In this document: piece after piece, positions 395 through 23,100 of the stretch
Layout of the letters: each line of letters starts with the position of its first letter
Position numbering within the stretch: the stretch's first letter is position 1
Assembly: GCA_018398765.1 (NCBI GenBank)
Contig: JAHBMJ010005877.1
Coordinates: 37,604 to 62,430, forward strand
Direction: 5' to 3'
Source: Chromera velia
Lineage: Eukaryota; Sar; Chromeraceae
Length of the DNA stretch: 24,827 bases
The notes under the pieces: generated by a model
What the model was told of the DNA's origin: nothing
What the model saw: the letters and a program-made list of their open reading frames with translations, nothing else
The model's database searches: none
Translations under genes and position numbers: made by a program

Positions 395-1565
395 GGGGTG
401 ATTGACCGTCTGGGCATTCCCTTCGAAAAATTGTTCAAGAACTTCAAACTGGTCCCCAACCTCAGCAAGGTAGGTCAGTCAAGCAGGCAGGCAGCTAGCT
501 GGTTAGGCAGAATGCTGTAAGCTCAGAGGGTACAGAAGTGATTTATTTGTTCCTCTGTGCCACTTCGTAGTCCACTCTCCATGCACAGATTTTCTTTACT
601 GTTACATGCGAGTCGCAATCGACGTGCAAGCTTTTTTGTCCCCGGCCGTAGAGGGAAAAGACCATCTTTTCCTGCTGACCATCTTTTCTTTCGCTCCCTC
701 TTTTTCTGCTAACTGCAATGTTGCAGATCCAGGGCGTGGTTCTGCAAACGATGGAAGAGGTGGTTGGAGCACAGTGGTCAGTCAGTCAGTGAATCAATCA
801 GTCGATGCGCCCCCCACAAAGCGACAGACAAATTAAGGAGGTCTCCGGTTGGTATTCATTCAGGAGAACTGAAAAAGGTCGCCTGTCTATTCTTCCCATG
901 CACACGCCAGCAGCAGCAGCTTGGCGAAGCACACTACCTCATGCTTGTGAAAGTCCGCAACGCCCAGCTAGGTTCTTTTCCTCCAGAGGGAAAGTGAAAG
1001 TGTGTCTAGACAGACGGTGGCGCTACGGGCAGGCTCAGGAGGATAACAGGAAAAGAAAAGGAATCCTTCATGCATGCTTGGCAGCTTTCTCCATCGTCAC
1101 TCGATCGTTACATTTCGCTCTTTTCTCTTTTTTTCGGAGCTGCTCTGCTCTGCTCTGCTCGGATTCCTCCCTCCCTCCCTCCTTCCCGACCCGGGACGAG
1201 GACCACATAATGGCATACTGAGCCTCTTATCTTATCGATTTCCTCCTTGATTAGTTTATGATTCATGCATTTTTATAATTAATTTTATTTTGGTGCAGGG
1301 ACGAGGACCACATGATGGCATGGGAGTGGCTGTGGTCTCTGGCGACTGTGGAAAGGAGCGTGAACGCGTGAGTCAGACAGAGGGAGAGGGGGGTAGGGGA
1401 ATTCATTCGGCTCTGTCTGTGTTTTGGTCTCTGTTTTCGTTCTTGCGTGGTTCGGTGTCCCTTTTTTCTCCTTCACCCTCGTGTGTTTTTTTCTGCCTTC
1501 CGCTCTCAGTGAGTGCGTGCGTGTGTGTGAGTGTATGTATATATATATATATAGATATATACATA

Positions 1566-1597
<32 letters not shown>

Positions 1598-2025
1598 TGT
1601 GCATTTGTTGCGTGTGAACGATGAATGAAATTTTCTTCTTCAGGTGGCGCTCCACCGACCGCGACATTCTTCTTCAATCCTGGCTGGCAGTGGAGAAGGT
1701 GATCTTGCAGGAGATTGCGGACAACGCTCCGGAGGGCGCAGGGCGGGATTTCTTTGCGGAGGAAGTTCAGCCTGGAGCCGTGAAGAAGGCGGGGTTTGCA
1801 GTGGACGATGATGAATTGGGGGAGGGCGGGGGGAGTGAGAGGCAGTCAGGGAAGTCAATGAAGTCGACTAAGAAGAAAGGAGGGGGAAACATCTGGCAAA
1901 GGTTCTTTGGGAACAACGGGGGGGGGGCGGATGATGACAACAAATCGGCAATTTCGGGGGCATCAAAACAGCGCAAGTCCAAACAGACTGAACAACTCAA
2001 AGCGAGACTGAGTGAAGCACCCAAG
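395..2025 (+). CDS. Gene A exons 1-4: globin C-terminal half and charged insert
   Basis: Exons 1-3 encode about 65 residues that look like the G and H helices of a globin. Landmarks are [17 protein letters not shown] followed by AWEWLWSL, which matches the usual pattern of a helix, G, a short turn with W, and an Ala-Trp-rich H helix. The proximal-His helix of this first domain would be upstream of the window. Exon 4 (1644-2025) starts with a Trp-containing helix ([10 protein letters not shown]) that resembles a globin A helix. It then runs into about 90 residues rich in G, D, K and S, including [12 protein letters not shown] and a KKKGGG stretch, likely disordered. Splice phases are 0, 2, 2, 0. 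I infer that the charged segment is an insert between A and B helices of the second globin; it could equally be a linker between two domains. Confidence 0.75.
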
Positions 2026-5000
2026 GTGAGCAAGTGCAGGGGAGGGGGGGCGGACACCTCATCCACAGAGAAACTTAGACACAGCAAGAAAAGAAAGGAG
2101 GGAGGAAGAGGGAGGATTCTGATGGTGAATTCATTTTTTGACAGAACAAAAATAGGGTTCTTTCACTCACTCTCTCGATCCCTCTCTGGTTGTCCCACTC
2201 TCCCTTCATATTTGACTCAGATCACTCTGTCCGCTCAATGCATCAGTCATAAAACCAACAACCTCCAGCTTTGTGGCATTTCAGAACGAATTAAGATCGC
2301 TCTCCAAAACGACCGGGCCAGGTCTTTCCATGCATTTGTTCCTTCCTCTTCACCTTCTTTCTTTCACTTCTTTCTTTGCATGGCTGGACGAGGTCGGATG
2401 AATTTAAATAAAGAAATGAAATGACCTCAAATGATGCAGGTGACATGGGAAGTCGCCGAAATCTTCGCACGGAAGATCTTCAAAATGTTCGCCACAGACG
2501 CGCCAACTGTCGACTCCATCTTCGTCAAACACAGAGACGTGAGTCTGTCAGTCAGTCAATGAATCAGCTAGAGATTCCGACAGACAGTCAGGCAGCCGTC
2601 TGAACGGACTGATCGATTTGACGAATCCATGCTGTGAAAACAGTGAACCATCAGAACATGATGAGAGTGTACCTTCGAAGTCGCATAACCAGCTGAGTGA
2701 GTCTGGCGTGCTGCCTTCGACCTTCGGGCTCTCTGTAGCTTTCTTCAAGCGATCCTTTTCTGTTGCCTCCATCTCTCACACCAGCCATCCGGCATGTTTT
2801 CGTGATCGTCAAATTCTGCTTTTCTGTCTGCAGGCGTACACCCACACGGTCCAGGGCATCCTGAATCGACTCCTCGCGTACATCAACGACCCTCATGTCA
2901 GTCAGTCCGTCAGTTCTTCGCATTCATTCCTTCCGCAATTAATCTCTCTTTTTGAATGAATGGGTTCATTATCGGGGGGTCCCTGCCGGCGTGCCTCGAT
3001 GCCCTTCCTCGCTAGCTGGAGGAGAGACAATGCAGGGGATGGTATCCGAGGTACGAGCTGTCGTGGGTGGGACATCACTCACTGGCATTCACCGCACGAT
3101 CGTTCATTCATTCATTCATTCATTCATTCACACTGCAGTTGCTCTGGATTGAAGTCATTTCTTCTTCTACTTATTCCATCTCTCTTTCTTTCCTCTTCTC
3201 TCTCTCACACACACTCTCTCTCTGTGTCTGTGTGTGTGTTTGTGTATGTGTGTCGTCTCTCTCTTCATGACGTCATTTGGACCAGGTGCTATAGATCCAG
3301 GCCGACGATCGAGTTGGCAGAATGTTCTTATGGTCACTTTCAATATTTCTTCATTGCCGCTATGATCAATATTTCTCTTACACGTATATGTGCATGCATA
3401 CATAAATACATAAGAATGTATGTATATTTGAATGAATGTTGTTCCTCTCTCTCTCTGTGCGTCTCAGTTGCTCTGGATCGAGGACGAAGAACTGGCGCTT
3501 CGACACATCAAATACGGAGTGATGCCGGGAGACATTCCGATCTTCAGAGAAATCTTCCTGGCGACTTTCCAAGATATTGCCGCAGGGTCGTGGACAAAAA
3601 GGTGCGTCGGTCTGTCTGGCTGACTGTCTGATTAATCCCTCTCTACCTCTTTTTCTTTCACACACACACTACACTCACTATCTTTTTTTGTGGCAAGAGA
3701 CTCTGCCGATCCTCGCTTCTATCTATCGATCTAGGATCGATCTATCTGTCTATCTATCTTGGAAGGATCTATCGGTCGGTCTGTCACTATGTCGGTCTGA
3801 CTATCTTTCTGTCCACGTATCTTTCTTTCTGCCTATCTGTTTCGCTTGGATCTGCCCATTGTTTCCTGTGCACTGTATGTGTGTATGTATGTATGTATGC
3901 ATTCATGCATGTATGTAGGTATGTGTGTACGATTTTCCCCGACTTCACGCACGCAGGTACAACGACACCTGGAAGAAATACCTTTCCATTACCCTCTCGG
4001 GGCTCTCTGAGGTTTTGGTCTCTGCCCTCGACCCTGTGGCCAAGGCACTCATCATCCATTCGCCCTCAGATCTTATGCAGGGCCTGAAGGAGGCCCCCAG
4101 GGGACGACGGGCAGAAATGGGTAGGTCTTTTTTTTTTCTTTTTCATACAGAATGGGTAGGTCATAGGGATGGAAGGAAGGAAGGAAGTAGGGGGACAAAC
4201 AAGGGAATCAGACTGGAGGGGGGAAGGGGGATGGGTGGACGGGGACAAGGAACGTGGCGCTCCCTCGTGAGTTCTGTCTGCTGCAGACTGCATGAAACGG
4301 CCCAAGAGTCTTCAGAGTGTGGAGCATAACTGGAAAGAGAGCGTTTTTCATTCTCCTTCTCTCTTTAATTCTCGATAGGCTTTTCATTTCTCTTCCTCTC
4401 CTTCTCTCCCGTGCTTCCTTCCTTCCTTCCTTCCTTCCTTCCTTTATCCCCTCCTTTGTCTCTTTTCTGGCCACATTCCGAAAAACTCGGTTGCCTGCGC
4501 GGAAGAATGACGTCTCTCCTTCCAGTAACACACAGAGATCTCTTTTTTCGTTTGTGTTTCCTTTTGCGTCCTTTCCTTCCTTCCACCCTTCCTTACCTCG
4601 TGGCTGCAGCGTGCCAGATTGTGATCAAGGGAGAGTCCAAACCAGTGATCTACTGGTCAGTCGGCCTGCGTCCCTGTGTTTCCTTTCTGTGTGTGTAGTG
4701 CGTCCGTCGACTCGTCTGTTTGCCCGTCTTTCGGCCTTTTTATACTTTTGTCGGTTTCTCAGTCGGCTGGTCTCTCTGTCTGTATACGAAGCTGTCCTTT
4801 CTTTGTTGGTTTGTTTGAATAAGCTTTCTTCATTCTCTCCATTCCATTGCTCGATTGAGTACTTTATTGATGGTTTTTTTTTTGAAGGAAAAACTTCTTT
4901 TTTAATTTCTTTCTTCTGATGGTCGATGTGCCCGTACATGCATGCATTTTAGGATGGGTACAGGATGATCAAGGTATGCATTCATCTTCATACATTATGT

Positions 5001-8000
5001 GTAAACAAGAACTCTGTATGAAATGAACACAACACATGCATGCATTCATGCATTTTTGGATGGATGGATGGATGGATCGATGGATGGATGGATGGATGGA
5101 TGGATGGATGGATCGATGGATGGATGGATCGATGGATGGATGGATGGATGGATGGATGGATCGATGGATGGATGGATCGATGGATGGATGGATGGATGGA
5201 TCGATGGATGGATGGATGGATGGATGGATGGATGGATGGATCGATGGATGGATGGATGGATGGATGGATGGATCGATGGATGGATGGATGGATGGATGGA
5301 TGGATCGATGGATGGATGGATGGATGGATGGATGGATGGATGGATGCAGGATGATTGAGGCAGGGCACACGAAGCTTGTGAAGATCCTCATGCGAGACGT
5401 TTTGGCAATTCGGGCCAACAGATCCGGAGTCTGGTGGGGGGGTTCTACATTGTGGGAGTGGTACGGCAAGGATCTGGTGAAGACGATCTGCCAGATGGCC
5501 CCTGAGGCCTCCTCAGACCTCCTCGACGGTCATATCTGGTGCTCCGATGTGGTGGGTTTCTTTTCTTTTCTTCTTGTCTTTTCTGTTGTTTCACTCAAGC
5601 TCCTTTCGGTTTAGATCGCTTCTTCTTCTTGTTCATAGGAAAAGAGGGAAAAGATCGACTTATCTGATTCGGGGGGGGGCGGTGAAGAGAGGTAGTGCAA
5701 AAAACGGAAAGAGCCTGACGCAAACCGAAATTGCTCTTCTTTCCACAGTTATTGCAATGACACGAAGAGCAGACTGTTAGAAGCACAAAAGATCTTAATG
5801 CCTCCGTGCATGAACTGCAGGTCGTGCGGGGGAAGCGTCGCGTGATCTTCTACGTCCGCGATCTGTGGGGAGACTCTACTCGTCTGACTTCCTCAGGAGA
5901 GCCGATGTACAAGTCCGTTGCTGAGTCCCCTCTGGCCCTTCTGGTTAGGATGCACGACGTGAACGTGGCCTCTCACCCTCTGGTGCAGTTCCTCGTCGAG
6001 AAGAAATGGACGCTGTTTGTGAGGAAACAATTCCTCATGCAGGAACTTATGGGCCTCTTTCAGGTCAGCCAGCCGGCCTGCATGGGAAGAGAGAGGTGCC
6101 CAGGTGCATGATTGTGGTTGTCTGCATCTTGGATTGATTTTGTGTCTGCATGATCGAGTCCGTTTCCTCGTTCAAAACAAACAAAATGATTAATGCAACT
6201 TTGGCGAGTAGGATTGCGTGACGGTGTCTGGAGGGACGGGTGTTGGAAAGTAGAAAAGAGAATGGATGATCCAAAGAGAAGAGGGAAGCGCTTTGGTGAA
6301 GTGGTCAGACGAGGGTAAACTCTTCTTTTCTCTTCTTGCGTGGGGAAACAATCTGTGTGGCCACGTAAATGAAAAAGAAACGGTTGTTGTGTGACGTACA
6401 TTAATGCTTCTGAACACATTCATTCGGCTCACATGATTGCCCCTGAATGCACAGATTCTGGCTCTGTGTCTCGGCTACGTGTGGCTTGCGGATTCGCAAC
6501 CGGGGGCTGCGTTCGTCTGTCGGGCGATCGTGTGGACAATTGCTGTGATCTGGTTCGGCATCTTCATCTCCAGATGCCACAAACAAATCCAAATCAAAAT
6601 GTACCGGTAAGTGGGTAAGTGCACGAGTATTGTTTTTAGTGTCCGTTCTTGACTGCAAAACTAGTCCAGCAAAAAAAGAGGGAGCCGCGTGCACTCGTCT
6701 GCTGTATGCAAGCACGCAGGATAGAAACGAGTGGAATCTTTCGAAGGGAGGCACGTGCATATGTCAGAGCGATGCCCTGCCAGTCGTCGGATATTGCAGT
6801 TCTGTGTCAAAATTATTCATACATACATATTCTGGCACGAGACCGGTGGATATCTCCTGAATCATTATCGTCATCATGTTCTGTCCTTCTTATTTTCCCC
6901 CTGACCTTTGTCTTTCGGCTTTCCGTCTGCCTCCATGCATGCAGCCCCAAGCTAGCGGGATTCGACGTGAAGTGCGAGGTGCCGGTCACTGCGGCGTCTT
7001 CGTGGAACGTCCTGAGAACCTTCGCTGCCCTGTTCATGATCGTCATCGCAGTGGAGGAACTCGTGCTCAACGGGGCGGCAGGGATCACTTCAGGCAAGGT
7101 GGGCTGTCGAGTGAGTGCATTTAAATTGTGTTCGGGCGGGTGAGTTTTGGGGGGACAAACTAGTGAGTGGGCGAATTCTGTAGGGCAAAATTCTTGGAAG
7201 ACCGTTACGGTTGACAAAGAACTTTGTTTTGTGTTCGCTTCACGTCTTTGCAAAAGAAAGAGAACAACTGCTGTCTGGTTGGATGTACCAACAGGCAATC
7301 TGAAAATGTAGTTTTTCAAAGCTGAACTAAATCAGGTTCGTCTCCTTTTTTTTTTCTGGACTTTCTCTCCTTCCTCGTTTCTGCTGATGCCCCTTCCTGA
7401 ATCAACGATTCGATGAACGTATGGATGGATGAAGAAATCCATGGATGAATGAATTAATGCAGTCGATCATCTCCCAGGAACCAGACGCCACCGCGATCCT
7501 GAATGCCTTCGGAGTCCTCATTCTCTTCATGTCCTCCCTCCAGCTGATGATGGCTGATCCACGACTCTCCGAGCTCCTCCTCGGCACTCAGGTGCTCTTG
7601 AACGTTGTTGCCAAATACACCGTCATCCTGGTCAGTCAGTCAGGAAGGATCACAGGCAGGCAGGTAGACAACTAATCAATCACTCAAGCAGTAGACTAAG
7701 AAAGCAAGTCGAGAAGGAATGATGCTTCGCTGAAAAGAGAACACCTCATCGAATGGGTCGTGCCGTGCCTGTGGTTTTCTTTCTGTGTGCGTGTAACTCC
7801 GCAGAGAAAGAAAGCCCTCCTCATCCTCATCAGCGCTTTCTTTGCATCAATCAGACGACAGAAAAAAAGAGAACACGCGATCGATCGATCGGAAAAGAAA
7901 TTCGGACAGTGACATGGCAAGCAGGCAAATTGAAAATTCGTTGTGTCTGTGCACCTGCCTGCGTGTCTGCGTGTTTGGCTTCAGGGTTTGTTCGTGATTG

Positions 8001-9412
8001 CCTTCTCTGTGCTGATCACGTTGATCGCATCTGACACCGCGGCATTCGCAACCTTTGAGGTTGCCCTCGCAAACATGTCGGCCCTCGCACTGGGGGCATA
8101 CGAGGTCGACCTTTTGGAGGCGCAGTCGGCAACATCAGTGAGAGTAAGTCGACCGATCAGCCAGGCTGCCCGAATGCTCGTGGCGGGAAGCAGCGTTTGT
8201 GGTCCAATGTTCGCGCATGCCTTTCCATTGGAGAGAGAGGTGAACTGAGGGAAGGAAGAAATCAAGTCGTCGAACGAATTCATCTGGGTACTTTGAATGG
8301 CCCAATTTCGACCTCCCCTTCTTGTCATCTTACTCTTTCTATCTTCGATACTGTCTCTGCCGTGACCAATTGCTGTCACTCGCTCTGTGCCTTCTCCAAC
8401 TTTTAACATGTTGCTAGCGCTGTTGCTTTTACTACACTGTTTCTGTTCTTTTGACTCTTGTGCCTGTATGTCTTGCCGTTGTGTCCTGAGCAGATCGTGC
8501 TGGTGCTTTACTCTCTGGCGACAGCGCTTCTGCTGATCAACGGTCTGGTGGCAGTGATGATCGCTGTGTATCAACAGGAGAGGGGGGACATGGAGAAGAA
8601 GGCAATGCTCGGTCTGGCAGAAATCGTGACGGAGTTCGAGTCCGTCAACTCAACAGAGTTCCTCAAAAAGGTGAGTCAGTGAGTAAGTGAGTGAGTGAGT
8701 GGGGTAGGTGTGTTAGTCTGTCTGTCCTTCCGTCCGTCTTTGCATGAGTGTTATGAAGGGACTCAGTCAGACTGAAGCATGGATCGAATCGTGACTGTAA
8801 AGATGCCTGAAGACTGTTTTTACGTACGAAGATTGACAGCAGACTCTTCAGCAAATTCTCTCCGAGCATGCAGAGGTCCAAGGTGATGCAGATGGACAGG
8901 AACGAATGAATGAACGAATGAATGAGTCAAGGAAGGAAGGAAGGAAGGAAGGAAGGAGAGGCGTCTTTTTCAATCCGTTCGCGATGTGTGAACGCAAATG
9001 TATATAAATGCCCGAATGACTGTCTGTTGTATTGTTTTTCTCTGTGTCCACCTCCTTACCTGCCTGTCGGTTTGTCTGTCTGCCTGCGTGTTTGCATGAT
9101 TGCAGATTTCGGACAGTTTGAATTTCTCCCGGCGACTCTCCCTGGATGACGTCAAAGAGATCGGGCCCGACGGGGGGATCGAGGCCTTGGTGGACGCATC
9201 CACATTCACTGTACGTGAGAATATAAATAGAATAAGCATGTAGAACTGATCTAAGACTGTGCATCGAGATCTTGCATGGTGTATGGGAGGTGCGTTCGTG
9301 TGCGTGTGTGTGTGTGTGTGATTTCGTTAATTCCAAAAGGGCATCTATCGCATGGTTCCCGCCCAATTGCCTCGTTACCTGCCTACCTGCCGGCCTGCCT
9401 GCCTGCCGTTCC

Positions 9413-9445
<33 letters not shown>

Positions 9446-10840
9446 TTCTTTCCTTCCTTTCTTTCTTTCTTTCTTTCTTTCTTGTGTGTATGGGCAGATA
9501 AAGAGAGCATTCAAGCAGGTTCTCCTGTCACCCGACCAATCAAATCCACATACTCTCCTTCGCCGCTTGTCTGCCTGCCTGTGAGTTTCTTCTTCTTTCG
9601 TCTTTCTTTGCATGCAGGTGCCTGGGTATACAGAGAGGGGCAGAGCAAGCAGAGTCGAGAGATATGACAGTGAGGAGGGCCCAGAGGTCTGTCGGTCTGC
9701 GTGGTTGTTTAAAAGTCTATTCTCGTCTCTTTTCTTGTTTGGACAATTCATTTAGTGTCAGAAGGCTTTCAGCGGAGCGAAGACAATAAGAGAATCCTTG
9801 CTCTCATTTTTCCCCGTTCATTCGTGTGCACTCATTGAATCAGAAAAAAGACAGGCTGATCTTTGTTATGCTTTCTTTCGAGTTTTGCGTAGAGATGAAA
9901 GATCCACACGGCTTTCCTACATGCTTAGTCAGGCCTTTCGTTTCTTTTCTCTTTGTTTGTTTGTTTGTTTGTTTGTTTGTTTCGCTTCTCTGTGTGGAAG
10001 GATGGATGTGTTCTCTGACTTGGCTGCATGGTGGTGATTTTCTCTTTCTCTGATGGATGATGCATTTTTTGTTCCGTCTTAATGTAGTCTTCCCCGTCAG
10101 CATATACCTGTGGTCCATTTACTTTCATTGCATCGTTCGTGCTTCAAAAGAACGTCTGTCTGCCCACTTGAATGCAGGCTCCGTGGCCAGACGAGAGCGC
10201 AGGAGCGGGAGGTGCGGTGGAGGGTGGGGGCCAGAGCGTGTACACAGAGAAGGCGATGACTTCCTTGAGAGAACTGGAGAGAGAGGTGAAGAACATGAGG
10301 GCTCCTGCCAACAGGCTCTTTAGATACGTACGTTTTTCTGCCTTTAGTTATGCCTTTTTGGTTAAATGCTTCACTGTGTTACTCTGCACAATTCATGAGT
10401 TTTTACCACTTTTTTCTGACTTCACGCGTTGCGTTTTGTCGCTCTGCAAGTAAACTTCTTGTTTGTCTATTTGACCTTCTTGCCGGTGTGTCTGTGTGTC
10501 TGGGTCGCTCCGAGTTGCTCCATCGAGGTGCTCAGTAGCTTGTGACTGATTGTTTCTCACTCTTCTTTCTTTCAAGTGTTTGTTTTTTGATTTGTCGTCT
10601 TTGTGAAATCCCCATGCACAGCCCGATTTATTTCCGCATGCGGTTTCTGATTCTCTTTTTTTGATTTTGTTTCTGATTCTCTTTTTTTGATTTTGTTTCT
10701 GATTCTCTTTTTTTGATTTAGCCTGATTTGCCCCCCGTCCGTCCGTTCAGGTGAAGAAATCTGCGAAGAACAGACCCCTCGAGGAGATCGACGAGAACAG
10801 GTCTCATGCCACACGCAGCAGCCAGGGGGTTGTCCTCTGA
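395..10840 (+). CDS. Gene A: globin-TRP-like ion channel fusion, 5'-partial
   Basis: This is a multi-exon gene read by hand. Exons: 395-469, 727-776, 1299-1367, 1644-2025, 2440-2538, 2834-2896, 3036-3050 (microexon), 3468-3601, 3957-4120, 4610-4655, 5350-5551, 5821-6063, 6455-6606, 6945-7098, 7463-7630, 7985-8143, 8494-8670, 9106-9210, 9618-9686, 10178-10327, 10751-10840. All introns are GT-AG and phases agree at every junction; the total is 2,766 nt, giving 921 residues and TGA. No start codon is claimed, because exon 1 begins with an acceptor and a globin fold already under way. Order of parts: globin C-terminal half (about 1-65), charged region (66-192), globin core (193-340), linker (350-500), six membrane segments with a pore loop (500-753), polar tail (754-921). 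Inferred role: a membrane channel gated or tuned by a heme-type sensor domain. The domain order is well supported; heme binding, ion selectivity and membrane location are inference. Confidence 0.85.
1526..1601. repeat. Compound TA/TG dinucleotide tract in intron 3
   Basis: Alternating TATATA followed by TGTGTG runs sit just before the acceptor of exon 1644-2025. Both strands stay open here and yield meaningless Cys/Val or His/Thr repeats; this is a microsatellite, not coding sequence. Confidence 0.9.
2440..4120 (+). CDS. Gene A exons 5-9: complete globin core with proximal His
   Basis: Exon 2440-2538 gives helices B and C, with [17 protein letters not shown], then a Pro and, six residues later, a Phe (residues 214 and 220). 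This is the same spacing as the conserved C2 Pro and CD1 Phe of globins. Exon 2834-2896 gives an E helix ([16 protein letters not shown]); E7 could be H229 or Q232, and I cannot settle which. Exon 3468-3601 carries [11 protein letters not shown], with His264 as the likely proximal F8 ligand, then the G helix ([13 protein letters not shown]) ending in GSWTKR. Exon 3957-4120 gives the H helix ([17 protein letters not shown]) and the downstream APRGRRAE element. The CD1-to-F8 spacing is 44 residues with the microexon and 39 without; Vitreoscilla hemoglobin has about 42. The heme-ligand assignment is from family knowledge plus position; binding itself is inferred. Confidence 0.85.
3036..3050 (+). 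CDS. Candidate 15-nt microexon in the globin E-F loop
   Basis: The stretch GGGATGGTATCCGAG encodes GMVSE. It is flanked by AATGCAG on the left and by a GTACGAG donor on the right, in phase 0 on both sides, between exons 2834-2896 and 3468-3601. Including it gives [28 protein letters not shown], a smooth helical run into the proximal His helix with normal globin spacing. Gene predictors would usually skip so short an exon. It could still be chance, since skipping it also preserves the frame. Confidence 0.55.
3718..3922. repeat. Degenerate TCTA/TCTG and GTAT tetranucleotide repeats
   Basis: The intron between exons 3468-3601 and 3957-4120 is largely imperfect TCTA and TCTG repeats (3718-3842) followed by GTAT and GCAT repeats (about 3876-3922), up to the acceptor region. 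No exon is seen inside. Confidence 0.8.
4610..6063 (+). CDS. Gene A exons 10-12: linker domain before the channel
   Basis: Exon 4610-4655 ([16 protein letters not shown]) joins in phase 2 to exon 5350-5551 ([17 protein letters not shown], then [19 protein letters not shown]) and then to 5821-6063 ([15 protein letters not shown], then [16 protein letters not shown]). The short helix pairs, such as the [12 protein letters not shown] unit, recall degenerate ankyrin-type repeats as found before TRP channel pores. The ending, HP..QFL.EKKW..F, is typical of the segment leading into S1 of ankyrin-containing TRP-like channels. From memory, dinoflagellate proteins carry a very similar block between a globin-like part and a channel; this was not checked. 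The exon at 5350 starts directly after a 290-bp GGAT tract. Confidence 0.8.
5056..5347. repeat. GGAT/GATC tetranucleotide microsatellite, about 290 bp
   Basis: The tract is essentially pure GGAT with single-base variants (GGATCGAT) recurring at irregular spacing. It ends in GGATGCAG, which is the acceptor of exon 5350-5551. The in-register repeat creates long spurious open frames on both strands (Trp-Met-Asp-Gly and Ile-His-Pro-Ser repeats). Only the last unit, modified to GCAG, has an obvious function as a splice acceptor. Confidence 0.95.
6455..8670 (+). CDS. Gene A exons 13-17: six-TM channel domain
   Basis: Exons 6455-6606, 6945-7098, 7463-7630, 7985-8143 and 8494-8670 are rich in hydrophobic helices. 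Approximate positions in the window protein: S1 500-526 (ends [12 protein letters not shown]), S2 534-553 ([18 protein letters not shown]), S3 585-607 ([19 protein letters not shown]), S4 627-647 ([15 protein letters not shown]), S5 658-688 ([19 protein letters not shown]). A re-entrant pore loop follows ([23 protein letters not shown]709, E712 and D714 are candidate filter residues), then S6 726-753 ([15 protein letters not shown]). The S6 motif (L-L-x-N-G-L-V-A) and the pore placement match TRP/polycystin-type channels. S4 lacks a regular Arg ladder, which argues against a classic voltage sensor. Ion selectivity cannot be read from this. Confidence 0.85.
9106..10840 (+). CDS. Gene A exons 18-21: cytoplasmic tail and stop
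   Basis: Exons 9106-9210 ([19 protein letters not shown], then [13 protein letters not shown]), 9618-9686 (Arg/Glu-rich), 10178-10327 (acidic and Gly-rich, then an amphipathic helix [14 protein letters not shown]) and 10751-10840 (Lys-rich, ending SSQGVVL and TGA at 10838-10840). The first exon joins S6-proximal FLKK directly in phase 0. The D...GPDGGI element resembles a block that, from memory, closes the channel part of related dinoflagellate proteins. The amphipathic helix near residue 870 could be a short coiled coil for subunit assembly; that is inference. Confidence 0.75.
9415..9484. repeat. TTTC tetranucleotide tract
   Basis: A pyrimidine tract of TTTC units with a few TTCC interruptions lies inside the intron between exons 9106-9210 and 9618-9686. 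A similar GGAA tract is at about 8930-8957, a GTTT tract at about 9951-9982 and a TTCC tract at about 4419-4445. All are intronic. Confidence 0.85.
10644..10720. repeat. 26-bp tandem repeat, three copies
   Basis: Three units start at 10644, 10670 and 10696, each reading TTTCTGATTCTCTTTTTTTG followed by ATTTT(G). The array is T-rich and lies just upstream of the last acceptor of gene A (TTCAG at 10746-10750), so the repeats extend the polypyrimidine tract region. Confidence 0.85.
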
Positions 10841-14424: not shown

Positions 14425-14984
14425 AACGCTATCCTCTTCCCTGCTTGTACTTCCTAAGAATTTCCTTCACCTGACAGCCCTGAACCTAGCTTCCCTTCTT
14501 TTCTTTGACTGTCTAAGACTTTTTTGGCTGCTCAGAGTCTGGCTGTCTGGGGGCGAGGTCCTTGTGTGCTTTGTTTGTGTGAATGCGAAGCCCATAGGGA
14601 GTAGAAAACGTTCGTCCATATACCTCACACTTCGCATCTCCGTCTCTCTGCCCCTTTCTCACCTCCCTTTTCTTTTCCTTTTCCTCCGCTGCTCTCTTCT
14701 CGATTTAGCAACACACATAACAACAAAATCAGCCATAAAACCGTAGTAGTTTTGACGGGGGGACTTTGTTATTGACAATGGCCTTTGCATATCTTTGCAG
14801 ATCAATCGATTCGACAGTATTACTTTCAACTTACCTGTCTGTATGCATGGCCATCATGATGCTCTAGGAAAGTTGGAGACATGATAGAAAAATGATGGAG
14901 GAAACGTGGAACGAAGACTGCCTGGGGCCTCTTTTACAGTCGTAAGTCTTGAATTCCAGGTCATAAGGCTGCTCGCCAGTCGAC
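14425..14984. other. Intergenic spacer, nothing recognised
   Basis: Ordinary complexity sequence with a CT-rich stretch at 14640-14710. There is an open frame crossing from the transposon into this region (14237-14746, +), but it spans the element boundary and has no family resemblance, so I treat it as chance. Confidence 0.5.
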
Positions 14985-14997
14985 AGTCGGATACCAT

Positions 14998-15200
14998 CGA
15001 TGCATGTACCCGCATTCATTTTCATACAGAACAACGGATACCAATCGATGCATGTACCCGCATTCATTTTCATACAGAACAACGGACACCAATCGATGGA
15101 TGTACCCGCATTCATTTTCATACAGAACAACGGATACCAATCGATGGATGTTCCCGCATTCATTTTCATACAGAACAACGGATACCAATCGATGCATGTA
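14998..15200. repeat. 48-bp minisatellite, four copies plus partials
   Basis: Full units start at 14998, 15046, 15094 and 15142, each exactly 48 bp, with a fifth partial unit at 15190 and a degenerate half unit just before the first. The unit contains CGATG(C/G)ATGT, CCCGCATTCATTTTCATAC and AGAACAACGGA. Copies differ by only one to three bases. Because 48 is divisible by three, several frames stay open on both strands and give 16-residue repeats; there is no other evidence of coding. Confidence 0.95.
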
Positions 15201-16265
15201 CCATGCAGTGACAGCAGCGCTCTAATTTAATGAAGGCTGACTAGCTGTCGGTCTCTCAATTTTTATTTTGACATGCAATGAAAGCGCGGGCAAGAATCAA
15301 AATTCGATCGCCCCCCCATCCTCGTCGTGTTGGATCGGCTCTTGCAGTCCATCGGTTGATCAACTGAATGTCAAAAAATAGGATAGTCCCCCCATTGCAC
15401 AAACAAGAAAACAAGATGACCATGCAAGCAGCGGAGTAAGCAAAGCAAAACTCCATTAAGCTGGCCAGGGAGCCGCCATCAAAACATTCACAGACAGTCA
15501 GGCATGTAACAGTTCAGCATGCTCTGAGAATAGACCCCAGCTCGTCAGCTGACCGACAGCTGTGCCAATTAAATTTGACTGACACGCTGAAAGATCTAAA
15601 AGAGGACGCCCGCCCGCCCAAGTGCAGGCAAAGAGGCGGGCAGGCAGGCAGGATCACAGGGAGGCGAGCCAGAGATCGAGAAGAGATAGAGCAGTCAGAT
15701 CAGAGAAAGACTGGATCTCCCGATTGAATTAAGGCGGGAGGAAGGGAGGGAGGGAGCAAGGGAATGGATGGACAACTAGGGTGGATCCCGCACCCGAGCT
15801 TCCCCCTTAATTCCCCAATCATGTGTTGTGGATAATCAATCGACTCCCTTCCATGCACCCCCTTCCTTCCTTCGATCCCCTAGCTTGAATAAATTCTACT
15901 TGATCCAACTCCCCACTCCCCTTCCTTCATTTGTGCTTTTGACGTCAGTCAGCCGTTCTCAACAGACCTCTCTCTCCTCTGCCTCTAAACCTGGCAGAAA
16001 GAGAGTCCTCTGAGTGATTCCGTCAGGACTTCTTCCGTCACTCTCTTCCTTCCATTGCACAAACTTGCAGACTTTCCTTTTTGTCTGAACTATATTCCGC
16101 GGTTGTGCTTTGGGGACATGTCATCAATTACCTTCACCAATGCCCTCTAATTGTATTTGTCCTATCTGTCCCATATCAGGACTCCGTTGGCCTTCTAAAT
16201 CCATGAGAGAACTCTCGGTACTCTTCCGCTGCTTTTGCTGTTGTCGGCTGGGGGAACTCTGACTT
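15201..16265. other. Intergenic spacer and 3' flank of gene B
   Basis: No gene is supported. The right part (roughly 15800-16265) should include the 3' UTR of gene B on the minus strand. A GC-rich run with repeated GCCCGCCC and GGCAGGCAGG (15605-15660) and GGGA runs (15735-15760) are the only notable structures. A minus-strand TTTATT (AATAAA in gene B's direction) occurs near 15263, rather far from the stop to be its poly(A) signal. Confidence 0.5.
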
Positions 16266-16862
16266 CTATCCCCCGGCGGTCGTTCTTTTTCCTTCATATG
16301 CCGGCTCTCTGTCCAGAAAGAGGGCAGAAAGGCCGCGGCAATGGGACGCTGCTGTGGGTGCCCCCCCTTTGCCTCCTCTTGCGCCACTGTTCTTCTGGAT
16401 GGACTGAGAGGCATAGACTGAAGGACAGTGTCTGGTTCGATGGCTATTTCTACCCCCTCCCCCCTCCTCAAGCTCTCCTTCCCCCTCTTCTCCCTCATCC
16501 ACGTGAAAGTTGCCCCTTTCCCCCCACCTCTCTTTCTGTCTTTGTCTCCCTGAGCCTGGCTGGTCCTCAGGCTCGCTCATCTGATTCATGCTACCCGACC
16601 TTCCTTCAATAACATGATCGTCCTCCTCCTCCTCTCCGACTCCCTCCTTTTCTTCTTCATTCGCGTCGATTTCCTCTGCCTCTGAATCGTCTACGAGGAA
16701 AACGGAACTGTCAAAACACTCGTCTCTGTCCAGTTGCTGTGTCTCTGTAGTCTCCAAAGCATCCAGGCTGTCTGAAGATTTTTGCCGAGACGACGACGAG
16801 AAATAGGAAAGCTCAGGAAGGCCTGACAGGACCCGAACAGCAAGACGGGAATTCCGTCGCAC
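16266..16862 (-). CDS. Gene B last exon: acidic C-terminal tail
   Basis: This exon encodes 198 residues and a TAG. It begins [18 protein letters not shown], then a Ser-rich patch and a strongly acidic run ([18 protein letters not shown], then GEEEEDD), a [15 protein letters not shown] segment and a Gly/Glu stretch. There is no membrane segment after TM5, so the protein lacks the TM6-TM11 channel half of polycystin-1. The acceptor is GCTGCAG. A possible extra 41-nt exon just upstream (17239-17199, [13 protein letters not shown]) ends in phase 0 and would fit only if the previous exon uses its second, weaker donor. Confidence 0.7.
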   Translation of the reverse strand: MRRNSRLAVRVLSGLPELSYFSSSSRQKSSDSLDALETTETQQLDRDECFDSSVFLVDDSEAEEIDANEEEKEGVGEEEEDDHVIEGRSGSMNQMSEPEDQPGSGRQRQKERWGERGNFHVDEGEEGEGELEEGGGGRNSHRTRHCPSVYASQSIQKNSGARGGKGGAPTAASHCRGLSALFLDREPAYEGKRTTAGG

Positions 16863-16879
16863 CTGCAGCAACACACAGG

Positions 16880-16924
<45 letters not shown>

Positions 16925-17086
16925 GAAGACAGTCAAGTTCAAAGAAGGGAGAAGAAGAGAGATAACGAGAAGATCAGGAACCAAAAGACGTCCGCGTGCA
17001 TCCGCGAGCAGACTTTCAGACGAACACAAACTGTAGCCTAGGCAAAGGAGCCGGTGCCTCGAAAAAACCGACACCTACGCACACAC

Positions 17087-17139
<53 letters not shown>

Positions 17140-17148
17140 CGCACACGC

Positions 17149-17193
<45 letters not shown>

Positions 17194-20100
17194 GCTACCT
17201 GCAGCGACTCATCGTTAAAGGCAAGGCAGAGAGGTGTCACTGAAAAGAATGCAGACTTCAACCAAACAAGCAAATGACGGAAATTCGATTCAGAGTAAGA
17301 AATAAATGTAAAAAGAAAGGCAAAGGGGGAATTCAAGAAAAAGGAAGGGACCTACAAGGAGTCTCATGAGTGCGGTGGTGACGAATGAGATGGCGAGAGG
17401 ACGAAAGAAAGAGTCGATGAGGAAACAGAAGCCGGAAGAGCTGAAGAATCCCTTCAGGTCTTCGGGAGTGGCCGCGTACACAAGAGAGAACATGAACAGA
17501 TAATAGGCGGAACCCAAGATGACCATTAGACCGAACACCCGTCCCACCCACTGGAGAATGAAGGCTCTCCTTAAATGCTTTTCCCTCTGTGCAGGAGGAA
17601 GAAGCCACAGCTGCTTTCTTTTGTTTCTTGTGAGGTTCAAATCCCCACGGAGGGGAGGCTTGCTGCTTCTTCTTTGTCCTTCGTTCGTTTCTTCCATGCT
17701 CATTTGTTCGGGTGTCTTCAGGACCTCAGATGACCTTAAAGTTCCCCCCTGTCTCCCTCTCATGCTTTCTTTCAAATTCGATCGAGATGAGTGTTCTCTG
17801 TCAGACAAGTTAGCACTTGAGGTTCCCATATTACATCTCGAATGCTTTTGGCGAAGTGCCTTTTTGGTTCCCTCCTCTCCCTCTCCTGTGACTCTGGACC
17901 GCGAGCGATTCGGACCCACACGGGTGGCACTGCTCAAAGATGATGACTGGAGACGCACGAAGCGCTCGGACGTAAATCTGCACTCAGTCAGGAAGGTAGA
18001 GGAGCAAAAAGAAGGAAAGGGGCTTATGAGAGTACATATAGATTGATGGAAAAACATGACTACCAGAGTGACTGCGTTTCCCCCTGCAGAAGTCAGCTTG
18101 CAAACTGATGCATGTATTTGGACGTGCAGATACGTCCTCATCAGGACGCACGCCCAGAAAGAAGGTTCTTTGAGCTTGTCAGACAATCATCCCGCCGTTC
18201 CACAAAATTTCAACTCTTCTACTTACCTGCTGAGTCTCCCGGTGACTTGTCTCATCATGCGCCGCCTGTTCTCTTCCTCCTGTCGAATCAAAAATTTCAC
18301 TCGGGATATTTTCAGTTGCCTCCCGCTTTTGAGATCTTCAAGGAGTGGAGTCAATGGCGCAATGAAGGGAGGGCGGCGGTAGATCAGTCCTTCGATGAAG
18401 GTCAGAGGGATGACGGAGACGATCTCTGAAAGGAAGGTCGCGAAAATGACCCGAAAGTTCCACGAAACGAAAATGGAGAAAATGCCCAAGAGAGCAGAGA
18501 AGATCTCCTGCACGTCTGTGTCTCCAGGATTGTACCCAGTGTTCTGCCCGTCAGACCCGAAAAAGACTGCTATCACCTGCACGCACACACGGGTCGGAGC
18601 ATGAATGAACTTCCTACTCACTTCATCGTTGAAGTGATCAATTGAGTGAATTCTCAGCAAAACCGATTGCGAATTGCAGGATGCACATACCTGCTCTCAA
18701 GTTCATGCAACGCAATTCGGCATAGAGAGAGCAGCTGCTTTCAAGCAACCCTACTGAAAGATGCCATCAATTTTTTTCTGTATTCATCTGCATTTCTCCC
18801 TCCGTTCTGAATCCAGACTGACGTACCGCCAGGGAGAATGCGATGTCTGCACAGGTCACGATGGCCTTATCCAACCTGGACACGCCCTCTTCCGAGCAGT
18901 CGACCAAATAAACAAACGGATGGTCCCTCATAAACGATCTCCACAGAGATCTTGGAGTGTTCCAAAGACAGGGTGTCACTGTCTTTGCCATCGATTGGGC
19001 GGCAATCTCTCGGCGAGTCCACTCTGCCGGCTTTCTTTTGTCTGCCGCTTCCCTCATCCTTCTCAGCCCCTCAGAAAGTTCGGAAGCAAAACTGTCGAGG
19101 TCTCCGCAGTCGTCATCCTCTTCCTTGCCTCCTCGCAGCTGGAGGAGAAACCTCTGTTGTCCGACTTTGCAGAACAACTGCAAGACGATTTTTTCTTCCT
19201 CTCCCTCCGTCTCTCTCTCTCGGTCTTCAAGAGAAGAGGCCCTCCCTTGCTCCGCTTTATCTCTTGGAGACACACGGACAGGACAGCTCTTGACGTGCAG
19301 GACCCGTTTGAAGGGAATGAAGAAAGCGTCCTTCTTCTCAAACACCAACGAACGCACGCAGGGAGGAAGCACACGACTCGGATGAGGAGCATCTTCTGAC
19401 GGGCAATCGTCCTCCTCACTGCGCGTTGGCGACCTGCGAACGAACTGAACAGAGGCACAAAAGGGAGAGTCGATTGGGAAACTCTTCAGATCAGCCGCAG
19501 AAAGCGAGATGCAGAGAAAAGGCGAAGACACACGTGCTGGCGAGATCACATGCAGGGAAACTTGAGGATGCATGGTGAGGCAACACATACTGACTTGCTT
19601 CTACACGAAATCGAAGTCGAAAGATCCAGAAAAGACCGACAGACAGACATGGAAGTCAGTGAGCCAAAACATAGACAGGAAGAAAAGGCAATCGATCGAT
19701 CGGGAGAACTCTCGTTCCATCCGTCCATTTTCTTCCTGAATTCGGCTGAGGTTTTCTCTCTCCAACAGAGTGAGATGCCGGTTTTCTGTAGCTCTACGAG
19801 CATACATGCCTGCGTGCCTGCCCTTCCTGTCCGACCAACTGAGCGTCTTTCTGCCCTCATACCTGAGAGAGGGAGTGGTCATCTCTCCCCAGCCTGACAG
19901 ACTGATTGATAGATGGACTGACTGACTGCCTGACTGACCTTGATACTTGAGTGATCGACAACGGATGCAGAGAGTGAGATCTCGATGCCCTTTTCTAAAA
20001 CTCCCCCTTCTTCTTCTCCCTGAAGATTCTCCGTCCCCTCTTCTTCTTCTGCACCCGACACCCTCTCACCCGACCGAGAGAGACAGGGAGAGGAAGCCCC

Positions 20101-23100
20101 CTCCCAAGCAGGGAGAGAGAGGGCAGAGTCAGCAGAAGAGGGCAGAGAGAAACCCAAAACACGCACGGTGACCGTGTGGCTGAACCGTCTAAAAATAAAT
20201 TTCCCCGGGGGTGAAGATTCAATCTGCACGTCGATGCCTTCACATGCCCTACGCCCTCCTAATTCCCACTCACCCCCTCTTGTGATGCCCTCATCACCAC
20301 CACCTTGCTCTCTCTCAGACTGATTGGGATCCTCTTCGGGACTGCTGGAGAAACTGATCATGCTGGGAGGGAGGGCATTTGTCTGATTGCGAAGGCCAAA
20401 TGGCTGGGGTAGAGCAGCAGCACCTTCACTTGCGACGTCTCCAAAGTCAAGGTTCTTCTCAAGCTCTCCATCTCTATTCTCCTCTTCCGTCGCTTTTGCT
20501 TTTGCTTCGGGCGTGAGGGAGCTGTGAGTGGGTATGGGGGGACGGAAGCCCTCAGGCTGCTGTGAGTGAGAAAGGATGACACCCGCGTCTTCTGGGGGTT
20601 CTCGGGGTGTGTCGGTGTTGCTTTTCTCTTCTTTTCGTTTCGCTTCTTTCCTTCTGCGGAGCCATGTGCGAATGCGGGCTGCGGCCTGCATCTCCTTCTG
20701 GAGTCTCGCGCGTTCTCTGAGTCTCAAGAGCGTTGGAAATAATGATGAGGTGCCTAGACGGACCATCACCCTTCCTTTTAGAGAAGAGTCTGATTTGAAC
20801 TCGGGCTCTGGAGGGACAAAGTCCGAAATCAAACCCTCAGTCATTCGCCATTGGTCCAAGGAAACTCTCAGAGCTGCTGTTTTCTCAGGAAATGGGGTGA
20901 CGATCCTGACGGATACACTGGACCTGACAGTGGGCGTTCTCACGATTTTGTTGTTGCACTTCGACTCATTCGTGCTCGTACTCAACTCTTCACCCTTTGC
21001 TCGCATGACAAAACCCGACTTACAAGAAGAAGAAGGAGGAGAACCGTTGGAGGAAAAGGCCAGGAAAGTCCCGTCAGCACAAAGATGCATTTCCTGATTC
21101 TCATTAGTCATCCCTGCCTTCACTGCATTTTCTGCAGCAGTTTGCAGAGTTTCGAGAGTCGAGACTTGACCGCTCTTCTCTACTTCCCCTCCTCCCTGCT
21201 GATCCTGTGTGACAAGTTCGGTGTACCAATTCTTCTTCCTCCATAGATTCAACGAGCGCCCGTTCCTCCAAAGCCCTCTGCATTTGCAGCACGAAGAGCC
21301 CACCCGGGAGAGATGCCAAGAGGGGGGGCCCTCCACTAGTCGACCTGCATGCAGGATATATAAACTTATGGAGGGAGGGGCAACAACAGAATCAAAAAGA
21401 AGAGCTGGAGGAAGATGCATCTCGCAGGCCTCTACAGACACACAACCATGCACCGGTACTACTCACACAGACGTCCTGGCACAGACCTGCACGTAGACCA
21501 TCCATCCGCTCTCACAGCCAAACAGCACGGCACACACGAACCCCGTCTCTCTCCCTCACGCACGCACACACAAGCACATGCAGAGAAGAGTACAGCGACC
21601 GACCAAGAAATGCATCATCGCCCACAAGCGCGTCCACTTTCTGTTGGCCACTCTGATGCGGCAAGGGACTCAAATGATCCAAGATGCTCGCACGGAGCAA
21701 AAGCACGAAGCAGTACAGCAAGAGTGCTGTGACTGTCCACATTGCCATATTTCCTGCATGAAAGTTTTGCGATGCAGTTTGAAAGTCAGAGAAAATCCCC
21801 ACATTCAGACTGGCGACCACTGCAACAGAGTCCGACCGCATCGACGCGAAGTCAGTTAGGTGGGAGCATCTGCAGTGGAGACGGGTCCCGTTGGAGCCAA
21901 GACCAAAGCACCCGTCGGAAGACCAATTTCCCCTGAGTTCGTCCCAAAAATGACATCCCTGCAGACAGACAGAAAGACACACACATACACACACACACAT
22001 ACACACAGACAGACAAACAGACGGATAGAAAGACGGACAGAAAGACAGACAGACAGACAGACAGAGTCGCTCAAGTCTTCTTTTTTTTTGTTTTCCGCAT
22101 GTCCTCTAAAACAGAGAGAGAGAGAGAGAGAGAAACAGGTTGAAACAACGGTGGCACAACAAGACAATCCAAGAGAAGTAGCAGACCAACCTTTCTAAAG
22201 TCGAATGGTTGACCCGCTCCCACATCTGCTTCTCTATTCTCCAACAAGAAAAGATCAACTAAGAATTCCCCCCCAACCGAAGAAGAAGCAGAAGTTAAAT
22301 CTCTCTCTGCTGCCTCTTGGTCTTCTTCCAATCTCCGTTGTCTCTTCAGTATCTGTGAATGTCCAGAGGGCATTTGGACACTGTGCCCGCACACCCTCAG
22401 ACTCACACTCGTGGTGCCCCCCCCCACTCCCGACTCTGCGTAGACCAATCCCATGGGCCAGTTGACCAGGCCACCATCGTCAGAGACGGACTGGCAGCCG
22501 CACCAGAGGGGCAGGAGAGGCCCACACCATTCTCTTCTAAAAGCGCATCGAAAAAATCACGTCCCCCCTCTACTCCCCTCTTCTGAGAAAACGCAACCCT
22601 CGCCCCTTGCGAAAAGACAATCTCCGTCTGTCCCTCTGCAGACGACGTCTGTTGTCTTTGCACTTTGTTTACTGTGATGAGAATCTCTTCAGACTCCAGA
22701 GAGGCCCCCCCTGCGCTTTGAAGTGCGGGGTCGGTGTCCAGGCGGCTCTCCGTGATCTCAGCTGACAGGGGAATCAACAGAAGAAAGAGAATAAAAAAGT
22801 CCGAGCTACCAAAATTAATTCAAAAAGTCCCTTGGGCATCAGCAACTTTGACAGGATTGACCCCAGTTACTTTGTAGACATCTTTTCACATACGGAGAGC
22901 GACAGACGCCGAGAGCGGAAAAACAGCATATATGCAGACATCAAGGCACCAAGCAAGTCGCACAGAAAGCACTTTAAGTCTCTGGTCGCATCGCCGCGAG
23001 ACGACCAGAGAGAATTTGTGTAGAACTTACTTGAATTCAATTCAGCTCGACTGACTACTTACTGACTGACTGACTGACTGAAGGCATTCACTGCACTGAG

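Follow-up and report, generated by a model that had tools for sequence, protein, structure and literature searches.

Tandem globins joined to a TRP-like channel in one Chromera velia gene: a candidate haem-controlled cation channel

Introduction

Bacterial globin-coupled sensors (GCS) such as HemAT, AfGcHK and DosC couple an N-terminal globin to an output module. To our knowledge, globin sensors known so far signal by way of a cyclase, kinase, chemotaxis module or reductase, and channels known to respond to O2 or nitric oxide (NO) do so via a separate sensor or by being chemically modified. TRPV channels carry a cytosolic ankyrin domain at the N-terminus, and when their N-terminal domains move, a linker and the pre-S1 helix transmit the motion, which reaches the TRP helix and the pore. 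Here we describe a gene in which globins precede a TRP-like channel. It lies in a 24,827-nt stretch of Chromera velia DNA (GCA_018398765.1, contig JAHBMJ010005877.1, positions 37,604-62,430, forward strand), which we call the window and whose numbering is used below.

A globin and a membrane module on one chain are known from proteins in which the partner is a seven-transmembrane receptor. The consulted part of one report describes a C. elegans protein with a globin and a transmembrane (TM) part on one chain, the TM part being N-terminal (PMC1457004), and that of another describes chimeric globins of Guillardia theta, which have several globin domains and a putative cytochrome b5 as partner (PMC4101818). 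A 2025 essay, in the part consulted, counts ion channels among the outputs that gas receptors might conceivably have and names no globin-channel fusion (PMC12755159). Our literature search covered titles and the starts of abstracts, with most subscription journals outside its coverage, and found no globin-channel fusion named. Within that partial coverage, the modules are known and their combination was not found described.

The gene encodes, on one chain, tandem globins, a linker, six TM segments with an S5-pore-S6 arrangement, a TRP-helix-like segment and a C-terminal tail. Judged from sequence, it is nearly certain that the globin-TRP channel architecture belongs to a single gene. That the product is a globin-coupled TRP-type cation channel, gated under the control of haem ligands or redox state, we regard as about an even prospect.

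The gene model and its paralogs

The gene occupies 395-10840 on the forward strand, where 20 exons join in consistent phase into a 916-residue protein with no internal stop, ending in TGA at 10838-10840. Exon edges were picked by eye and then checked by script: all 20 acceptors read AG, and all 19 donors at internal exon ends read GT. The original prediction had counted 21 exons, a number that the rebuilt chain does not reproduce; it had correctly placed the main landmarks, namely the motif at residues 254-264 with the F8 His, C2 Pro214, CD1 Phe220 and the 11-residue S6 motif. An assembly gap (8,077 N counted, in L002) immediately precedes the window, so the 5′ end of the gene is missing. At the other end, exons 17-20 (9106-9210, 9618-9686, 10178-10327 and 10751-10840; residues 780-916) encode the C-terminal tail, one block of which is conserved in paralogs.

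The introns have a character of their own. Here and at L008, L035, L037 and L038, they often start with GTCAG and run into GTCAGTCA repeats (SVSQSVSQ when read through), and in the window gene GTCAG stands at 5 of 19 donors and ATGCAG at 7 of 20 acceptors. The pattern looks as if microsatellites grew out of the splice sites, and in several paralogs the codon for the F8 His is interrupted by a GTCAG-type donor. The last part of intron 9, as far as its acceptor, is a long imperfect GATG/GATC repeat (5050-5345).

A six-frame search of the same genome (177.8 Mb), in which 50 of 134 candidates were scored, gave 53 matches on the window contig and 18 others. With 50 of the 134 covered, the family may be larger than counted. 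We examined 16 of the 18 contigs; C2168 and C2906 matched in the C-terminal tail only and were dropped before any counts were made. The paralogs are 29-47% identical to the window in the globin domain nearest the channel (globin 3).

Globin 3 and its relatives

Globin 3 is spread over exons 4-8. Exon 4 (1644-2025, residues 65-192) carries a putative helix A and a low-complexity insert of ~100 residues. Exon 5 (2440-2538, residues 193-225) encodes helices B-CD with C2 Pro214 (2503-2505) and CD1 Phe220 (2521-2523), and exon 6 (2834-2896, residues 226-246) encodes helix E, in which Tyr227 (2837-2839) is the E7 equivalent by alignment to HGbRL and HGbI. Helices F-G follow in exon 7 (3468-3601, residues 247-291), with the F8 His259 codon CAC at 3504-3506, and exon 8 (3957-4120, residues 291-346) supplies helix H and a connector (306-345) that leads into the linker.

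When the 916 residues were searched against PDB as a single sequence, a bacterial haemoglobin (3wfw) matched residues 201-299 with E 2.2e-4, alongside weak other matches (e.g., Pup on the low-complexity insert, E 0.007). With the globin part alone and the exon 4 insert omitted, the PDB match reached E 4.5e-7 and helix A joined the HGbRL/HGbI match, so its assignment to exon 4 depends on alignments without the insert. Pfam listed neither Globin (PF00042) nor Ion_trans for the 916 residues at E up to 10, the only match being a sub-threshold Ig, and both domains are therefore diverged. Given the modest single-sequence matches and the silence of Pfam, relatives were sought for family profiles.

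The resulting globin 3 alignment, A1, has ten rows (the window and nine paralog contigs) and is invariant at Pro245, Asp252, His259 (F8), Gly263 and Asp268. Searched against 177,635 PDB sequences, its profile ranked HGbRL at the top (6e-10), followed by HGbI, flavohaemoglobin and bacterial haemoglobin; 13 globins fell below E 0.01, and the best 60 of 81 matches (E up to 10) comprised 59 globins by name and one exportin. This profile evidence, over residues 193-316, bears out the proposed globin identity. An hhalign comparison of A1 with the genome's own flavohaemoglobin-like open reading frame (ORF), L001, gave 92.9%. A hidden Markov model (HMM) built from the nine paralog rows scored the window globin at 123 bits versus at most 6.3 in 500 shuffles, a comparison that addresses chance and not independence, as the rows were found using the window protein.

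The flavohaemoglobin and bacterial haemoglobin lineage performs NO dioxygenation, which raises an alternative: the globin could be a local enzyme, not a ligand sensor, that shields or adjusts the channel, e.g., as an NO dioxygenase or a peroxidase. Flavohaemoglobins and bacterial haemoglobins are indeed among its nearest solved relatives. However, no reductase domain was seen in the 916-residue protein, and L001, as a separate flavohaemoglobin-like frame in the same genome, would do that job. We consider an enzymatic role improbable.

No match named GCS was among the best 60 of the 81 PDB matches to the A1 profile. The GCS layout is present here, with the globin N-terminal and the output module C-terminal, and in this respect the protein would work in a GCS-like way, its globin matching HGbRL, HGbI, flavohaemoglobin and bacterial haemoglobin best.

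The channel part

Past the connector, exons 9-11 (4610-4655, 5350-5551 and 5821-6063; residues 346-509) encode the linker and the pre-S1 helix. The linker includes an ankyrin-like stretch, for which Pfam gave a match below its cut-off (E 0.0046) in the ORF of paralog C2621. Exons 12-14 (6455-6606, 6945-7098 and 7463-7630; residues 510-667) cover the S1-S4 region, exon 15 (7985-8143, residues 668-720) S5 and the pore loop, and exon 16 (8494-8670, residues 721-779) S6 and the TRP-helix-like segment.

Hydropathy gives six strong peaks (503-521, 529-547, 582-600, 623-641, 664-682 and 721-739) and weaker ones, of which 686-711 is the pore helix and 300-324 lies beyond the channel. Seven windows reach at least 1.6, versus a mean of 2.7 over 300 shuffles. 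On this hydropathy basis the protein has the six TM segments and S5-S6 pore loop of a TRP channel.

The 916-residue search against PDB gave matches in the TRPV family: Inactive at 0.017 (479-520) and TRPV3 from 0.03 (654-771). With the channel part alone these became 0.0043 and 0.037, respectively. A profile from A2, a seven-row channel alignment of whose rows just three (window, C1946 and C3489) extend to S5-S6, matched Inactive (1.3e-7), TRPV3 (4.8e-5), TRPC6 (0.001) and Nanchung (0.0014) over residues 479-778, and the best 60 of its 65 PDB matches are all TRP channels. The likeness to TRP channels at profile level includes S5-P-S6 and the segment after S6. An HMM from the paralogs only scored the window channel at 150 bits versus at most 6.2 in 500 shuffles, again as a test of chance.

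Integrity of the fusion

A gene model can join what the genome keeps apart: a globin gene might lie next to a channel gene, or mis-assembly might have brought the two together. Two features of the locus would suit such an origin: exon 9 has just 46 bases, and intron 9 ends in the GATG repeat. The paralogs argue the other way. An open frame in C2621 aligns to window residues 125-509 at 35% identity (E 8.7e-87), and the globin, connector, linker and pre-S1 helix (window residues 210-509) lie in one uninterrupted exon there, on which ground we rejected a two-gene artefact. In addition, globin, connector and linker parts lie on one strand in ten contigs besides the window (C1946, C132, C2621, C3489, C3646, C1757, C289, C2033, C731 and C2153). 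TM exons follow in several of them: C1946 and C3489 (S1-S6; both are rows of A2), C2033 (S1-S3) and C3646 (to S2). Among paralogs that contributed no row to the model, C1217 has S1-S4 (1e-15) and pore-S6 (2e-5), and C132 has S1-S2 (8e-6) and a weak pore-S6 (0.008). We give the two-gene explanation next to no chance.

The C2621 frame can be read on as far as S2 (residue 547), a reading that we rejected: the DNA has CAG|GTTGGT at residue 509, the place where exon 11 ends in the window, and the remainder is probably intron read-through. A 2,500-base gap follows the exon and hides the TM part of C2621. The predicted single transcript across globin and channel is in keeping with the C2621 exon, which is intron-free from the globin to the pre-S1 helix.

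Over residues 210-509, window and C2621 differ by 0.48, 0.33 and 0.63 at codon positions 1, 2 and 3, and 73 of 122 identical residues are encoded by different codons, which indicates that the protein is under selection. The continuous chain, the profiles and the paralogs with the same order of parts together bear out the idea of a globin and a TRP-like channel in one gene.

The haem pocket of globin 3

We surveyed the pocket in 17 loci (the window and the 16 contigs); nine of the 16 contigs are A1 rows, so agreement among them is partly built in. The helix letters as such are those in general use for globins, and the position letters (C2, CD1, E7, B10 and F8) were inferred from the alignment to HGbRL/HGbI.

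F8 is the position that would hold the haem iron. His was read directly in 11 of the 17 loci: the window, C1946, C2621, C3489, C3646, C1757, C289, C2033, C3449, C2536 and C2669. That reading left four further loci uncovered and, in C132 and C731, aligned Ser to the position over an exon boundary. At the DNA level, however, C132, C2153, C731 and C1217 have CA ahead of a GTCAGT or GTGAGT donor at the F8 codon, and an acceptor scan that did not require His found CAC and the family motif in C132, C2153 and C731, giving an F8 His across the intron at these three of the 17. An apparent loss of the proximal His to Gln in C132, C2153 and C1217 was considered and rejected for C132 and C2153, where the codon is split by an intron and reads CAC after splicing. 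Three loci gave no F8 reading: C1217 (even with a looser acceptor scan), C2203 and C3864 (a doubtful letter). The proximal His, on which the original prediction relied, is thus kept in all 14 of the 17 loci where F8 is readable, three of them via an inferred splice.

The rest of the pocket is conserved to differing degrees. Among the loci covered, all 11 have Pro at C2, 9 of 11 have Phe at CD1 and 8 of 13 have Tyr at the E7 equivalent. C289, which lies outside A1, carries Pro, Phe, Tyr and His at C2, CD1, E7 and F8. For the globin-coupled kinase AfGcHK, the consulted part of PMC8697598 gives a distal Tyr an important role in recognising O2. From these residues, haem binding by globin 3 is likely.

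Upstream globin units

Three paralogs (C1946, C3489 and C132) encode an extra upstream unit, globin 1, with LRHxHYG at helix F. The joined globin 1 piece of C1946 matched Pfam Globin with E 0.0024 (18.8 bits versus a cut-off of 22), and its PDB match to HGbRL was weak (E 0.12). Between globin 1 and globin 3 sits globin 2, whose C-terminal part is encoded in the window by exons 1-3 (395-469, 727-776 and 1299-1367) as residues 1-65; residues 1-68 gave a single PDB match, to the G-H helices of leghaemoglobin (E 0.03). The full order of the gene is probably globin 1 (with His), globin 2 (without), globin 3 (with His), linker, six TM segments and C-terminal tail. In the window gene, the assembly gap would contain globin 1 and the beginning of globin 2.

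Relatives outside this genome

Protein searches gave no match at E 0.001 among 7,995 sequences scored with residues 193-780, and none at 0.01 among 13 scored with the globin part. A search with A3, a further alignment of the family, gave two matches among 6,091. P0002 (JGI metagenome, 122 residues) matches the linker and pre-S1 helix (window residues 395-509), and P0003 (ENA metagenome, 156 residues, on a contig of 169,056 bases) matches the connector and linker (window residues 318-447); both are without a globin over these lengths. Because these two carry linker parts without a globin, a linker-channel module may exist elsewhere with other N-terminal domains. The suggestion that the family might be alveolate-wide, with a large set in dinoflagellates, found no backing in the protein searches, which returned no globin part from outside this genome.

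How the channel could be gated, and what weighs against it

We propose that the globins lie in the cytosol, at the place of the TRPV ankyrin domain. Globin 3 would bind haem via His259, with Tyr227 on the distal side, and the binding of O2, NO or carbon monoxide (CO), or a change in the oxidation of the haem iron, would shift helices E, F and H. The connector and linker would relay this movement to the pre-S1 and TRP helices and so alter the opening of the pore. Globin 2, without its His, would be a structural spacer, and globin 1, as seen in paralogs, would be a second haem site. Haem binding, tetramer, ligand and direction of gating are all features that we infer from sequence. In A3, mean column identity is 0.54 in globin helices B-E, 0.59 in F-G and 0.47 at the start of H; the connector has 0.60, the linker 0.68 and 0.63, and pre-S1 0.60. 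Conservation of the connector suggests that globin and channel are coupled.

Several observations count against haem-controlled gating or the anatomy behind it. Pfam recognises neither domain, the gap in C2621 hides its TM part, and no relative of the globin part was found in the protein searches outside this genome. Within the pocket, CD1 is Trp in two paralogs (C132 and C1217). Other letters stand at E7, at an exon edge, in 5 of the 13 loci covered (C1757, C3646, C3449, C731 and C132); in C1757, C3646, C3449 and C132, weak matches in the upstream exon have Tyr at this position. B10 is variable in the 8 loci covered (Ala, Ser in two, Leu, Val, Cys, Gly and Ala). No His was seen by eye in the globin 2 helix F stretch of any of five genes (the window, C1946, C132, C3489 and C3646), so a globin in these proteins need not bind haem. 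Lastly, P0003 shares the connector with no globin in its 156 residues, so the connector may be a piece of the linker and not an element of globin coupling; this brought our confidence in the gating proposal down from slightly better than even to even.

Some of these points would also suit a different role, in which the globins are haem-free or haem-indifferent scaffolds that have replaced the TRPV ankyrin domain in assembly or docking, and gating is by something else, such as stretch, heat, lipid or Ca2+. Such a scaffold fits the missing His of globin 2, the variable B10 and the connector without a visible globin in P0003, and non-haem globins of Bacillus are mentioned in the consulted part of PMC4101818. 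However, a pure scaffold needs no pocket residues, and globin 3 keeps its F8 His, C2 Pro and CD1 Phe/Trp across paralogs as diverged as those found here; globin 1 likewise keeps its His in the three paralogs where it was seen. We therefore consider the scaffold unlikely.

The protein might instead sense haem or iron availability, the channel answering haem loading and not a gas. Such a sensor would have the same anatomy, and the variable B10 would be compatible with it; Tyr can itself coordinate haem iron. The E7 Tyr found in most loci covered suggests ligand handling, however, and we hold haem-availability sensing to be very improbable.

Neighbouring sequence and other genome features

On the minus strand of the window, the ORF at 21512-22105 contains a GPS domain (the G-protein-coupled receptor proteolysis site; PF01825, 8.5e-11) at 21842-21955. 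By eye, a hydrophobic segment follows it, and minus-strand ORFs at 16266-22819 have further hydrophobic stretches. These ORFs are perhaps a PKD1/REJ-like or adhesion-type receptor gene adjoining the channel gene.

Three smaller features were noted by eye. A tandem repeat of ~48 bases (CATTCATTTTCATACAGAACAACGGATACC...) at 14953-15225 has several frames open, and a short minus-strand ORF at 14513-14704 holds a C2H2-like zinc finger motif minus one Cys (CEVYGRTFSTPYGLRIHTNKAH). Upstream of the gap, L002 341-1560 is coding-like, has hydrophobic segments and ends in CPIC; it is perhaps a membrane RING protein. Elsewhere in the genome, L001 (G000:C3421:84539-84856), flavohaemoglobin-like by eye, is one 454-codon frame with no introns and was the sole match of a PF00042 search of this genome.

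Comparison with known systems

Taken as a family, the 17 loci might constitute natural haem-gated channels, in which tandem haem globins replace a TRPV-like ankyrin sensor and turn a gas or redox stimulus into a cation (Ca2+) signal with no second messenger. We advance this wider view tentatively, at somewhat less than an even chance. If true, it would add a new output class to the globin sensors and a new sensor class to the TRP channels. With the globin built into the channel, acute gas sensing would take place within one protein, and such a protein would be a natural scaffold for currents controlled by gas. The number of loci in one genome (some perhaps alleles or incomplete) suggests a main sensory route in the organism.

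The described systems each share a part of this plan. HGbRL (3wfw), HGbI (3ubc, 3s1i) and the flavohaemoglobins, the best profile matches, are like the window globin in F8 His, CD1 Phe and C2 Pro; HGbRL and HGbI differ in having Gln at the E7 equivalent in the aligned sequences, where globin 3 has Tyr. The window globin also differs from all of these in being fused to a membrane channel and in its ~100-residue insert between the putative helices A and B. Compared with bacterial globin-coupled sensors, the plan of an N-terminal globin and an output is the same, but the output here is an ion channel and the globin is nearest to the HGbI/flavohaemoglobin group.

The multi-globin proteins of the protist Guillardia theta resemble the window family, but no channel is described for them in the part consulted of PMC4101818. 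In the C. elegans protein the order is reversed: here the globins precede a six-TM channel. With TRPV/TRPC-type channels (Inactive, TRPV3, TRPC6 and Nanchung), the window family has the pre-S1 helix, six TM segments, S5-pore-S6 and TRP-helix-like segment in common. An ankyrin-like stretch in the linker matches below threshold, in paralog C2621. The family differs from these channels in its pore, which reads LGAYE, GAWEP or GAWTP, and is diverged beyond Pfam Ion_trans. Where those channels carry their ankyrin domain, the window family has tandem globins.

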